Assembly: GCF_002261185.1 (NCBI RefSeq)
Contig: NZ_NEVQ01000009.1
Coordinates: 62,001-126,000, forward strand
Direction of reading: 5' to 3'
From: Bordetella genomosp. 4
GTDB lineage: Bacteria; Pseudomonadota; Gammaproteobacteria; Burkholderiales; Burkholderiaceae_B
Length of the DNA stretch: 64,000 bases
The notes beneath the pieces are model-generated. The model was not told the DNA's origin, ran no database searches, and saw only the letters and a program-made list of their open reading frames with translations. Positions 1 through 58,983 of the stretch are shown in pieces (position 1 is the first letter of the stretch; each line of letters starts with the position of its first letter). The translations under genes were made by a program, and so were the position numbers.

Positions 1-165
1 GTGCCGCATTTTCTGGCTTCTCCGGCGTTGGAGGAGGGAAGGCTTGTGCAGCCGGTGCCGCAGGTGTTGACGGTGGGGCAGGGGTATTACTTTGGGTATT
101 CGCAGCGGGATGAGAGGTCTGAGGCGTTGAGGGCGTTTGAGCGGTGGTTGCGGTCGGTGGCTTAA
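1..165 (+). CDS. LysR-family transcriptional regulator, C-terminal end (5' truncated by window)
   Basis: Frame 1 is open from the first base to a TAA at 163-165 and encodes 54 residues. The piece PHFLASPALEEGRLVQPVP, followed by a YYFGYS strand and a closing amphipathic helix ending in FERWLRSVA, resembles the last part of the LysR substrate-binding domain of the GcvA-like subgroup. Such proteins activate or repress nearby genes according to a small ligand. The HTH domain and regulated genes lie outside the window, so the target is unknown. The next 500 bases hold no gene, only two large palindromes. The family call is inference from a short fragment; a different periplasmic-binding-fold protein is possible. 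Confidence 0.6.
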   Translation: MPHFLASPALEEGRLVQPVPQVLTVGQGYYFGYSQRDERSEALRAFERWLRSVA

Positions 166-203
166 GGGGAGCTTGCAATGCGGTGTTCGGGGTTCTTTAG
201 ACG

Positions 204-419
204 CCGGGGCTCGTCGTGTAAAGGGCGCGCTGGCCCTATCGCCTGGTCTGGCCGCCTGCGCGGCCAGACTGCCCTTCACCTGTCTCGCCAGGCGGGGCGG
301 CTGGGCAAACTCGCTCCGCTGCGCTCCACTCAAACATGCCCAGCCGACTTCCCCCCGCCTGACAAGACAGGTTCGGCAGGCTCTACGGGCCAGCGCGCCC
401 TTTACACGACGAGCCCCGG
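204..419 (-). repeat. Large palindromic cloverleaf element, subfamily B, reverse orientation (locus 1, left)
   Basis: Perfect 33-bp inverted arms at 204-236 and 387-419 enclose about 150 bases that fold again. Within them lie an inner stem (GCCTG/CAGGC on the minus strand), a 10-bp hairpin formed by GTCTGGCCGC, a 4-base loop and its complement, and a long second hairpin built on GGCTGGGCA/TGCCCAGCC. On the minus strand the outer arm is followed by GTAGAGC and the loop closes with GCGATA, close to the junctions of the elements at 500 and 58793. Open reading frames across it are by-products of the arms. Confidence 0.85.
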
Positions 420-499
420 CTCAGAACGTCTCGTATTCGTCGATGTGGGAAAGCTCGTGGATCTATGCTGCACACATCGGTGGCATGCCACCATTGTGA

Positions 500-632
500 G
501 TCCCTGTCGCGTGCCGGAGTGCGGCGCCGGGCCGTTGAGCACGGGGCAGTCCCCGCAGGGGACTTCGGCCCCTGCTAATGGGCCGAACCCGTGCGATAGG
601 CCCGGCGCCGCACTCCGGCACGCGACAGGGAC
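500..632 (+). repeat. Large palindromic cloverleaf element, subfamily B, forward orientation (locus 1, right)
   Basis: Perfect 34-bp arms lie at 500-533 and 599-632. Inside are an inner stem (GCACGGG 539-545 with CCCGTGC 588-594), hairpin 1 (GTCCCC 549-554, loop GCA, GGGGAC 558-563) and hairpin 2 (TTCGGCCC 564-571 with GGGCCGAA 580-587). Junction words are GTTGAGC and GCGATA. The element at 58793 has the same layout with different but still paired stems. It ends about 30 bases before xerD. Confidence 0.88.
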
Positions 633-663
633 GGCTTAATAGAGATATTCGCTCCAGATACTG

Positions 664-5122: not shown

Positions 5123-5197
5123 TGGCCTCGCCGGGTGGAATCGAACCACCAACTGACCCTTAGGAGGGGTCTGTTATATCCATTTAACTACGGCGAG
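5123..5197 (-). tRNA. tRNA-Arg (anticodon CCT), CCA encoded
   Basis: On the minus strand the 75-base gene folds fully. The acceptor stem is CTCGCCG/CGGCGAG, with discriminator G and an encoded CCA at 5123-5125. The anticodon stem-loop has loop CTCCTAA, giving anticodon CCT, and the T arm is GGTGG-TTCGATT-CCACC. The D arm GTTAAATGGATATAAC is the one seen in other tRNA-Arg(CCT) genes. It reads rare AGG codons. No integrated element was seen at its 3' end, although such genes are frequent attachment sites. Confidence 0.93.
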
Positions 5198-36259: not shown

Positions 36260-36300
36260 AAGAGCGTCTTCGTTGCGGGGATGGTGGGGTTCTAATGGTC

Positions 36301-36462
36301 GTCGAGCCGAGGCAATCGGCCCGGCCGGGCTTCACAAAGTCGGTCCGGCGCGCGGGCGCCGGACACCGTGTTCGCTCACCTCGTCCGCGCCTGCGCGCTC
36401 CCTACGGTGTCCGCTCCACTCGACTTTGAGGCGCCCGGCCGGGCCGATTGCCTCGGCTCGAC
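36301..36462 (+). repeat. Cloverleaf palindrome, subfamily A, left unit of composite copy 1
   Basis: Perfect 30-bp outer arms (36301-36330 and 36433-36462) enclose an inner stem AAAGTCG/CGACTTT, hairpin 1 (GTCCGGCGC with GCGCCGGAC) and hairpin 2 based on ACACCGT/ACGGTGT. Junction words are TTCAC and GAGGC. The 67 bases at 36356-36422 are an exact reverse complement of 37037-37103. Confidence 0.88.
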
Positions 36463-36996
36463 TGGCAGCAATTAGAGTTCTCTGCATCGCTGGCACGACT
36501 TTCTTGCTTGGCGTTTTTCTGCGGCCGCGTTGGTAGAGAGAAAGATCTTGCAGTGCTGCTTTCGGCAGGCGCCCTGCGCGCCTACCTCAAGCGATCGGTC
36601 CGGGCATGCGACGGGGTGGCGTCATGCCTGATCGGAAGATCTGCTTGGCTGCGTTTGATGCTTGCGGCGATGATGCGTAGGGCAGTTTTTCCGGCGGTGT
36701 ATCCGTAGCATGTCCGTGCTCTGAATCAGAGTTCATCGCCGCGGACGTGATTTGCGCTCATCCTGATGGCATTACAACGAGTGCCATGCGTGGCATTACG
36801 TCAATGTGACTCGAGAGATCTTTTGCCCGGCAACGGTGCCACAGCCTGTGCATGCAGATCCCGAACGCGATGACCGGGTGTGCAGGGCACCCGGTCATCG
36901 CAGCCCTGCAAGATCTTTCTCTTCACCCAGGCTGACACAGAAAAATGCCAAGCAAGAAAGTCGTGCCAGCGATGTGATGAGCTTGAGTTACTGCGA

Positions 36997-37159
36997 GTCG
37001 ATGCGGAGCAGTGGCTGCGTGGGGGCGCCTCGTGGCCGAGTGGAGCGGACACCGTAGGGAGCGCGCAGGCGCGGACGAGGTGAGCGAACACGGTGTCCGG
37101 CGCGCAGGGCGCCGGACCGGCCACGTGAAGCCCCCACGCAGCCGCTGCCCCGCATCGAC
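36997..37159 (-). repeat. Cloverleaf palindrome, subfamily A, right unit of composite copy 1
   Basis: Outer arms of 30 bp (36997-37026 and 37130-37159) match at 28 of 30 positions. On the minus strand it shows junctions TTCAC and GAGGC, inner stem GTGGCCG/CGGCCAC, and the same two apical hairpins as the left unit. Both outer and inner stems differ in sequence from the left unit yet remain paired. Confidence 0.87.
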
Positions 37160-37196
37160 GTCCAATAGCACCAAACCCATCACACCCGAACCCCCA

Positions 37197-43056: not shown

Positions 43057-43218
43057 GTCGAGCCGAGGCAATCGGCCCGGCCGGGCTTCACAAAGTCGGT
43101 CCGGCGCGCGGGCGCCGGACACCGCGTCGCTCACCTCGTCCGGCCCCTACGGGCCTCCCTTCGGTGGCTGCTCGCTCGACTTTGAGGCGCCCGGCCGGGC
43201 CGATTGCCTCGGCTCGAC
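43057..43218 (+). repeat. Cloverleaf palindrome, subfamily A, left unit of composite copy 2
   Basis: Perfect 30-bp outer arms (43057-43086 and 43189-43218) are identical to copy 1. Inner stem AAAGTCG/CGACTTT and hairpin 1 are also the same. Hairpin 2 is replaced by a different sequence that still pairs (CACCG/CGGTG with a nested GGCCC-CTAC-GGGCC). Confidence 0.88.
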
Positions 43219-43752
43219 TGGCAGCAATTAGAGCTCTCTGCATCGCTGGCACGACTTTCTTGCTTGGCGTTTTTTCGCAGCCGCATTGGTAAAGAGAAAG
43301 ATCTTGCAGTGCTGCTTTCGGCGAGCGCCCTGCGCGCTCACCTCAAGCTATCGGTCCGGGCATGCGGCGGGGTGGCGCGGTGCCAGTTGGAAGATCTGCT
43401 TGGCTGAGTTTGAGGCTTGCGGCGACGATGCGTGGAGCACTTTTCCCGGCGGCATATTCATAGCATGCTCGTGCTCTGGATCAGAGTTCATCGCCGCAAA
43501 CATGATTTGCGCTCACTATGATGGCTCCACAACGAGTGCCATGCGCGGCATTTACGTCAATCTGACTCGAGAGATCTTTTGTCATGCAACGGTGCCACAG
43601 CCGTTGCATGCAGATCCCGAACGCGATGAGCGGGTGTGCAGGGCACCCGCTCATCGCAGCCCTGCAAGATCTTTCTCTTCACCCCGGCTGATGCAGAAAA
43701 ACGCCAAGCAAAAAGCTCGTGCCAGCGATGTGATGAGCTTGAGTTACTGCGA

Positions 43753-43915
43753 GTCGATGCGGGGCAGTGGCTGCGTGGGGGCGCCTCGTGGCCGAGTGGA
43801 GCGGACACCGTAGGGAGCGCGCAGGCGCGGACGAGGTGAGCGAACACGGTGTCCGGCGCGCAGGGCGCCGGACCGGCCACGTGAAGCCCCCACGCAGCCA
43901 CTGCCCCGCATCGAC
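43753..43915 (-). repeat. Cloverleaf palindrome, subfamily A, right unit of composite copy 2
   Basis: Perfect 30-bp outer arms (43753-43782 and 43886-43915); inner stem and apical hairpins match the right unit of copy 1. Two positions that are mismatched in copy 1 are fully paired here. Confidence 0.88.
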
Positions 43916-58369: not shown

Positions 58370-58495
58370 TCTTGCGCTGATCCTGTTTTGAGGAAAAAAA
58401 TGCTTCCTGGGGCAGTAGGCTGAAGGCGTAGCGTGTGGGTCTTTGGGGATGCTGGGGGGCTGTCTGTGGCATGCTTCGGGTGGAGTTCTTTTGGC

Positions 58496-58629
58496 GCAGG
58501 AGGTCGGCGTGTAAAAGCCCCGCCGGGCCTATCGCCGCGACTCGGCCCGTCAGCAGGGGCCTCGGCCCGCTTCGCGGGCTAAATCGCGGCTCAACGGCCC
58601 GGCGGGGCTTTTACACGCCGACCTCCTGC
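58496..58629 (-). repeat. Cloverleaf palindrome, subfamily B, reverse orientation (locus 4, left)
   Basis: Perfect 34-bp arms at 58496-58529 and 58596-58629. Inner stem GCCGCGA (58534-58540) / TCGCGGC (58584-58590). Two hairpins: GGCCC/GGGCC (58544-58561) and GCCCGC-TTC-GCGGGC (58565-58579). Minus-strand junctions are GTTGAGC and GCGATA, as in the unit at 500. Stems differ from that unit but remain paired. Confidence 0.88.
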
Positions 58630-58792
58630 TCGCAATGTCTTCCGGTGACGGATGTCATGCGCTTTGCTGCATCAACTCTGTTGTGTTGAGTTCACGATGG
58701 CCGAATGGCACTAGCTCAACCCACCGCATTGCCAAAGTCGGTTTCGAAAAACACGGATGGCAATCAGCCCTCGTTGCATTCCCTCATCATGA

Positions 58793-58926
58793 GTCCCTGT
58801 CGCGTGCCTGGGCGTGGCGGCGGGCCGTTGAGCACGGATTCAGTCCGCGCAGCGGACCGAGGCCCCTGGTCATGGGCCGAGTCCGTGCGATAGGCCCGGC
58901 GCCACGCCCAGGCACGCGACAGGGAC
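58793..58926 (+). repeat. Cloverleaf palindrome, subfamily B, forward orientation (locus 4, right)
   Basis: 34-bp arms (58793-58826 and 58893-58926) match at 33 positions. Inner stem GCACGGA/TCCGTGC; hairpin 1 GTCCGC-GCA-GCGGAC; hairpin 2 GGCCC/GGGCC. Relative to the unit at 500-632 the outer arm has four substitutions, each accompanied by the complementary change on the other arm. Confidence 0.88.
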
Positions 58927-58983
58927 GCTTTCAGAGAGACAATCACGAGCAGCAAACGCCCATAAACCAACAGCGATAAAAAA

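Follow-up and report, generated by a model that had tools for sequence, protein, structure and literature searches.

Short intergenic palindromes of the REP/REPIN kind are among the closest described systems to the elements reported here. As set out in the available part of Bertels and Rainey (2011, PMC3116915), these repeats measure 20–40 bp and occur as inverted pairs, the probable mobile unit, and as single copies besides. Bacterial MITEs, according to the accessible sections of PMC2229807 and PMC10969869, are small, dispersed between genes and bounded by inverted ends. Within Bordetella itself, three families of intergenic stem-loops have been described; in the portions of PMC1590033 and PMC2267715 at hand, Bor (26–30 bp) resembles the REP of Escherichia coli, and Bor-1 and Bor-2 are given in B. 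bronchiseptica as 117 and 167 bp long with 196 and 17 members, respectively. In another genus, the R6 repeat of Pseudomonas fluorescens (177 bp with 34-bp inverted repeats; PMC2718517, in part) is intergenic and similar to our units in size and arm length, a likeness of description rather than of sequence. Template switching, finally, has been proposed to create and maintain perfect hairpin stems (PMC8794818, in the part available); the process described there concerns RNA hairpins, whereas the subject here is dispersed bacterial repeats.

The units reported here share with REPs and REPINs the intergenic palindromes, the inverted pairs and the single copies, but they are mostly 130–220 nt long, carry no GTAG/CGTC-type tag beside the hairpin, do not conserve the stem sequence and have no RAYT in the same genome. 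Like MITEs, the elements are small, dispersed between genes and bounded by inverted ends, with lineage-specific insertions; unlike MITEs, they show no target-site duplication, no parent transposon was found for them in the loci read, and conservation at their ends concerns the fold more than the terminal sequence. With the Bor families they share the genus and the intergenic stem-loops, whereas pairing, cloverleaf and covariation are absent from those parts of the Bor descriptions; compared by description and not by sequence, Bor-1 and Bor-2 could be relatives of this family. We recognized no description of paired cloverleaf palindromes in this group in the literature searched, most of it outside subscription journals. 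The end boxes of integron attC sites, GTTRRRY and RYYYAAC, were not found at the unit ends.

Results

Four Inverted Pairs in the Window

The window, a 64,000-nucleotide stretch of the Bordetella genomosp. 4 genome, contains exactly eight hairpins with arms of at least 18 and a span of 60–330, a class that did not occur once in 50 Markov-1 random windows. They form four inverted pairs (203–632, 36301–37159, 43057–43915 and 58496–58926; Table 1). The original prediction had placed two palindromes in opposite orientation at the first of these sites, and both are present and face each other: the second has 34-bp perfect arms at 500–533 and 599–632, and the first, proposed as 204–419, is one base wider on each side, with 34-bp perfect arms at 203–236 and 387–420. 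Folding reproduced the outer stem and a branched interior, although that of 203–420 is more elaborate than the two apical hairpins envisaged. The right unit is followed by an inverted flank related to P0 (GGTTCTTTAGAC). The six further places listed for the same fold are indeed the remaining hairpins of the window and have the same layout, but they do not belong to a single family, as the four units of pairs 2 and 3 represent a separate family, beta, with 30-bp stems and other loops. Similarly, four stem changes between 500–632 and 58793–58926 are matched on the opposite arm, as had been claimed, but a fifth, at pair 28, affects the 5′ arm only and leaves a G·G mismatch. Searches against Rfam at its cut-offs returned one tRNA only from six sources, and other searches gave weak matches at chance level; the window has a tRNA gene at 5126–5197 on the minus strand (RF00005).

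Table 1. Features of the window. The strand of a unit is the one read from the core outward.
Feature	Position	Strand
Insertion 1 region, from the upstream gene (aligned part ends at 164) to xerD (starts at 664); ends approximate	165..663	.
Outer flank P0 (GGTTCTTTAGAC) of the left unit of pair 1	191..202	.
Alpha unit, type 1 stem (34/34), long loop; left end of pair 1	203..420	-
Alpha unit, type 2 stem (34/34), short loop; right end of pair 1	500..632	+
Beta unit, type 1 (stem 30/30); left end of pair 2	36301..36462	-
Beta core of 534 bp; in part an inverted repeat, with additional hairpins that differ among copies	36463..36996	.
Beta unit, type 2 (stem 28/30); right end of pair 2	36997..37159	+
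Beta unit, type 1 (30/30); left end of pair 3	43057..43218	-
Beta unit, type 2 (30/30); right end of pair 3	43753..43915	+
Alpha unit, type 1 (34/34), short loop; left end of pair 4	58496..58629	-
Alpha unit, type 2 (33/34); right end of pair 4	58793..58926	+

Modules and Their Pairing

Alpha units measure 133–218 nt, mostly with a 34-bp stem that encloses a loop of about 66 or 150 nt, and beta units 162–163 nt, with a 30-bp stem and about 100 nt inside. The orientation of a unit is fixed: first comes the outer flank, which reads GTTCTTTAGGC or roughly GTCTCTATTTAGAC in alpha and roughly GTNCTATTGGNC in beta; the palindrome follows, and then an inner flank starting about TCGCA. Common unit ends are GTCCC, GCCGG and GTCGA, and the outward strand just before the hairpin reads about TGNGA. 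Outer flanks differ even among copies with identical units, which we counted against a mobile element.

Neighboring units less than 1000 nt apart, in this genome and its relatives, face each other in 50 of 51 cases and have the same direction in one (L245). The alpha pairs of this genome combine a type 1 end (e.g. GCCGGGG) with a type 2 end (e.g. GTCCCTG), beta pairs are heterotypic too, and two hybrids (L021 and L034) have one alpha and one beta end. The core between the units is 60–222 bp long, or 434–544 bp in beta, giving beta pairs of about 860 bp, and the beta core contains further hairpins that vary from copy to copy. We saw no convincing gene in the cores looked at; a 175-aa frame at 43286–43813 has no counterpart in the copy at 36301–37159. 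In alpha, long and short loops occur on both stem types (11 long and 12 short on type 1, 6 and 24 on type 2), implying that loops and stems have been reshuffled. Shortly beyond the right flank of one beta element, 17 consecutive C occur (L052:2981–2997).

Very long palindromes with arms of 41–79 nt were found at L086, L189, L208, L214, L239, L032 and L041. At the first of these, the long hairpin joins the two facing units of a pair; we took the other hairpins longer than 240 nt (such as the last six named) for joined pairs of the same kind and left them out of the unit counts.

Copies in the Genome and Its Relatives

BLAST searches with three query units against the whole assembly (5.53 Mb, 23 contigs) gave at least 25, 36 and 99 matching places, with up to 40 candidates scored per query, numbers that count places and not copies because palindromes match on both strands. 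The 75 stretches taken from this genome yielded 110 units, including one (L044) truncated at the end of its contig; further units lie beyond these stretches on contig C7 and at C16:506584. Ten contigs (C1, C2, C3, C4, C9, C10, C14, C15, C17 and C21) have an end that falls inside a beta unit or no more than about 860 nt from one, and beta repeats probably break the assembly. Sixty stretches from six congeners added 83 hairpins, of which 73 were kept as units; 3 of the 183 units had no clear orientation, and the remaining 180 were analyzed.

The original prediction would have been undermined by a lack of further copies, and copies in relatives are many. Matches to R1 were found in 13 of 200 genomes of the GTDB family, representing 3 of 43 genera and all nine Bordetella genomes examined. 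The beta element matched 8 of the nine Bordetella genomes and 20 of the 200 in the family (9 of 43 genera), mostly by short matches to the loop. Outside the genus, all 20 stretches fetched around such matches have a hairpin with arms of at least 16, and in 10 of them TTCTT/TTCTA or its complement lies just outside a hairpin; we regard these as candidate units. An order-wide search with model R2 found matches in at least 2 of 399 genomes, both in Bordetella, under strict filters and with the best 8 candidates per genome scored, so that weak relatives may be missed. Searches of plasmids with window positions 58470–58960 and 36280–37180, and of phages with the latter, gave no match.

Stem Covariation and Matching of the Arms

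Shuffles and slid partners served as controls for covariation. Among 30 alpha units of this genome, the score was 0.566 in comparison with 0.164 for shuffled data (none of 500 shuffles reached as high) and 0.064 to 0.094 for slid partners, confirming that the covariation noticed in the window goes beyond chance. Of the cells, 97.2% were paired (75.3% when shuffled); the number of further pair types, 67 in comparison with 66.4, was by itself not above the shuffles. The signal is extreme in set A3 of 44 units from Bordetella and genus g36, with 97.3% of cells paired, in comparison with 63.6%, and a score of 0.798 in comparison with 0.178. All 33 pairs of its outer stem show two-sided changes, with few wobbles, and the tip of the Bordetella and g36 units holds invariant columns.

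The letters of the stem are variable, mean outer-arm identity being 0.435 over the outer 24 letters of 111 alpha units, and 110 of the 180 units have arms without a mismatch. By our hand count, beta stems show six one-sided and 17 two-sided changes, and 11 or 12 of the latter are double transversions. Copying of one arm is the simpler account of the double transversions, as stepwise compensation via G·U cannot yield them. At stem divergences of 5–10%, two-sided changes outnumber one-sided ones by 5 to 2 in alpha (two copy pairs) and 202 to 2 in beta; at 1–5%, the numbers are 3 and 9 in alpha and 49 and 39 in beta, the copy pairs in these counts not being independent. The one-sided changes among the closest copies are as stepwise change would give and speak against arm copying, and their frequency at 1–5% leaves room for selection that lets only well-paired units spread. 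The original prediction had offered selection for structure or arm correction by template switching. Our data support either or both and, between template switching and selection for well-paired copies, lean toward copying.

The two-sided transversions of beta, the wide differences among stem letters and the many units without arm mismatch would also be expected of old dispersed repeats that have no function and whose arms are equalized only by replication template switching at palindromes. We consider this account quite improbable: tips and junctions are conserved between genera, flanks are conserved, loops and stem types have recombined, and many beta copies of this genome are about 90% identical, which together require more than mutation.

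Strand Bias of Mismatches and Folding

Read from the outside to the core, the 5,477 stem pairs contain 65 A·C and 8 G·T mismatches and 23 of other kinds, or 34, 7 and 19 as distinct events. The bias has the same direction at both alpha end types, here (A·C to G·T 11:2 for alpha type 1 and 22:1 for type 2) and in relatives (4:0 and 19:2); in beta there are few cells, 9 A·C in comparison with 3 G·T (2:0 and 2:1 for types 1 and 2 here, 1:0 and 4:2 in relatives). Fixed-single-strand transposition in the style of IS200/IS605 predicts opposite signs at the two ends and was rejected in that form on the same sign in alpha, the cells in beta being few. The bias does not depend on the direction of host genes, the counts being 32:3 between convergent genes, 10:3 codirectional with and 13:1 codirectional against the genes, 3:1 between divergent genes and 7:0 for unclassified units. 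The strand running from core to outside thus either tolerates mismatches as G·T or G·U or suffers C to T changes, and the bias could arise from RNA or from strand-biased C to T mutation. The outward strand also gives the more stable fold in 94% of 172 units with RNA parameters and in 95% with DNA parameters. Among 111 alpha units, 87 carry a T-N-C triloop, which reads GNA on the outward strand; loops of the GNA type have very high stability in DNA.

Insertion Sites and Gene Neighborhood

Three of the four window sites (1, 2 and 4) have no unit in any of eight congeners and are thus lineage-specific insertions. At site 1, five of the eight relatives keep the upstream gene and xerD, with 25–101 nt between the aligned parts (25 in G015 and about 46–101 in the other four) in comparison with 520 in the window. 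At site 4, the gene pair is kept in all eight, with 69–294 nt in comparison with 746 here; small hairpins of 80 and 95 nt occur in this neighborhood in L267 and L268. Site 3 is common to this genome and G015, on one flank. By our own reading we accepted shared sites for 13 of the 75 stretches here and 19 of the 60 of relatives, several on one flank only, leaving out L203, L204, L207, L214, L240, L223, L235 and L192, with L212 undecided. The empty and the shared sites indicate that the family both moves and persists. At 4 of the 13 shared sites the class differs, with alpha here and beta or mixed in the relative; striking as this looked, we set it aside, since by a rough estimate a similar number could result from independent insertions. 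A test of 33 pairs at k of 2–9 and offsets of 6–29 revealed no target-site duplication: the best offsets gave 9 for k = 2, which falls within the conserved flank, then 3 for k = 3, 1 for k of 4–7 and 0 for k of 8 and 9.

Most complete pairs lie between convergent genes: 20 of 33 here, the others being 8 codirectional, 3 divergent and 2 unclassified, and 11 of 17 in relatives, the other 6 codirectional. The underlying gene calls are imperfect, as the script misses genes and classed pair 1 (L009) as divergent and pair 3 (the second of L051) as codirectional, whereas by sequence these are codirectional and convergent, respectively. Such placement is compatible with insertion in the least harmful places or with a function at the ends of genes. 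Six of eight relatives have a hairpin and T-run terminator at site 2, past the gene that lies downstream of nuoN (window 36260–36300, L277–L284); here, the beta element starts at this point and no such terminator was found in the first 50 nt. In this genome, 5 of 34 convergent gaps with units contain an intrinsic terminator near a stop, as does 1 of the 5 gaps lacking units; the counts in relatives are 0 of 17 and 4 of 16, respectively, and all of these numbers are small. The units themselves are not mere terminators, as the original prediction held: TTTT within 10 nt after the hairpin was found in 2 of 180 units on the outward strand and none on the other, and four or more T within 8 nt in 2 and 3 of 180 on the two strands.

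The convergent excess and the terminators in place of the element at site 2 raise the alternative of an RNA structure useful to the host at gene 3′ ends, in which the outward transcript would fold and cap or insulate convergent mRNA ends without intrinsic termination. The mismatch bias equals G·U tolerance in such an outward RNA, and some sites are common to several species; the 13 shared sites fit retention for a host role as well. We find this explanation somewhat doubtful, as single units beside codirectional genes face either way (4 with and 3 against the genes here, 11 and 10 in relatives), the bias is unchanged where the outward strand is antisense to codirectional genes (13:1), and three of the four window sites are empty in all congeners. 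Moreover, G·U on the favored strand would make up just 65 of 5,477 pairs, and RNA helices usually show more.

Search for a Mover or Parent Element

Inverted pairs, intergenic placement and palindromic units would all suit an outsized REP/REPIN family moved by a RAYT, and the Y1 transposase domain (Y1_Tnp, PF01797) has one match in each of six of the nine Bordetella genomes. The remaining three, namely this genome, G015 and G103, all carry units and have no match. The six Y1_Tnp loci (L301–L306, in G123, G171, G141, G156, G053 and G081) are flanked by several short palindromes of a different, GGTGTC type and contain no unit, the best R2 match being E = 0.012 at 20.2 bits. They look like a classical REP/RAYT system in Bordetella, with palindromes that are perhaps, as a guess, the published Bor repeats. 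As these loci are flanked by another repeat and lack the unit, a RAYT is a most improbable mover of this family.

Among the loci fetched we saw no parent transposon with the same ends. Candidates for autonomous copies were rejected: the widely spaced units at L027 and L036 are not partners in a close pair, and at L027 ordinary genes separate them, and the 2-kb spacing of L307 reflects an IS256-like insertion inside a unit (L307:3135–4516 in G047; the insertion has a 430-aa frame, from the look of which the family was judged, and is flanked by AGAAGCCA on both sides). The core of L308 seems by eye to hold a remnant of an IS256-like IS as in L307. We also rejected pairing of the flanks of the two ends as a four-way junction, as similarity within pairs was below that between pairs in 8 of 9 comparisons, the exception being the inner flank 21–45 of alpha in relatives (0.337 in comparison with 0.274).

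Discussion

The observation made in the window is confirmed, and its interpretation is partly supported. Beyond it, our analysis adds that the units are the ends of paired, dispersed elements, that three of the window copies are lineage-specific insertions and that the mismatch bias marks the strand that matters. The family is real, strongly structured and mobile, and it extends across several genera of the GTDB family.

We tentatively favor, at a little short of even confidence after a slight reduction for the one-sided changes among the closest copies, a nonautonomous, REPIN- or MITE-like element of the Bordetella lineage that is recognized by its fold and whose arms are matched by arm-templated copying. 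A complete element is an inverted pair of end modules with a core of 60–544 bp between them. In each module, the outer flank (about GGTTCTTTTGGC) leads into the palindrome, which combines a 30–34 bp stem of free sequence with a conserved branched tip, and an inner flank beginning with TCGCA completes it. We infer that the module is recognized via this tip with one strand in folded form, the one whose 5′ to 3′ direction leads from the core to the outside. For the stem it would then be enough to be double-stranded, so its letters could drift, and the arms would be kept equal by copying one from the other, via template switching or fold-back synthesis, more than by stepwise compensation. A putative trans-acting enzyme would move the pairs, most of which lie between convergent genes, where insertion should harm least.

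A stem that is free in sequence and yet nearly perfect is an unusual feature in an element of the MITE/REPIN kind. A bolder reading, unlikely in our judgment, is that the family represents fold-defined mobile DNA, with folded-strand ends recognized by their three-way tip and one arm rewritten by fold-back synthesis at each move, a bacterial analogue of rolling-hairpin ends. If true, it would explain how stem sequence can be free yet nearly always perfect.

The family offers a natural, many-copy record of how long palindromes remain perfect, in which template switching and compensatory selection become directly testable against each other in bacteria. It also points to a putative enzyme moving large folded repeats in Bordetella and its relatives.
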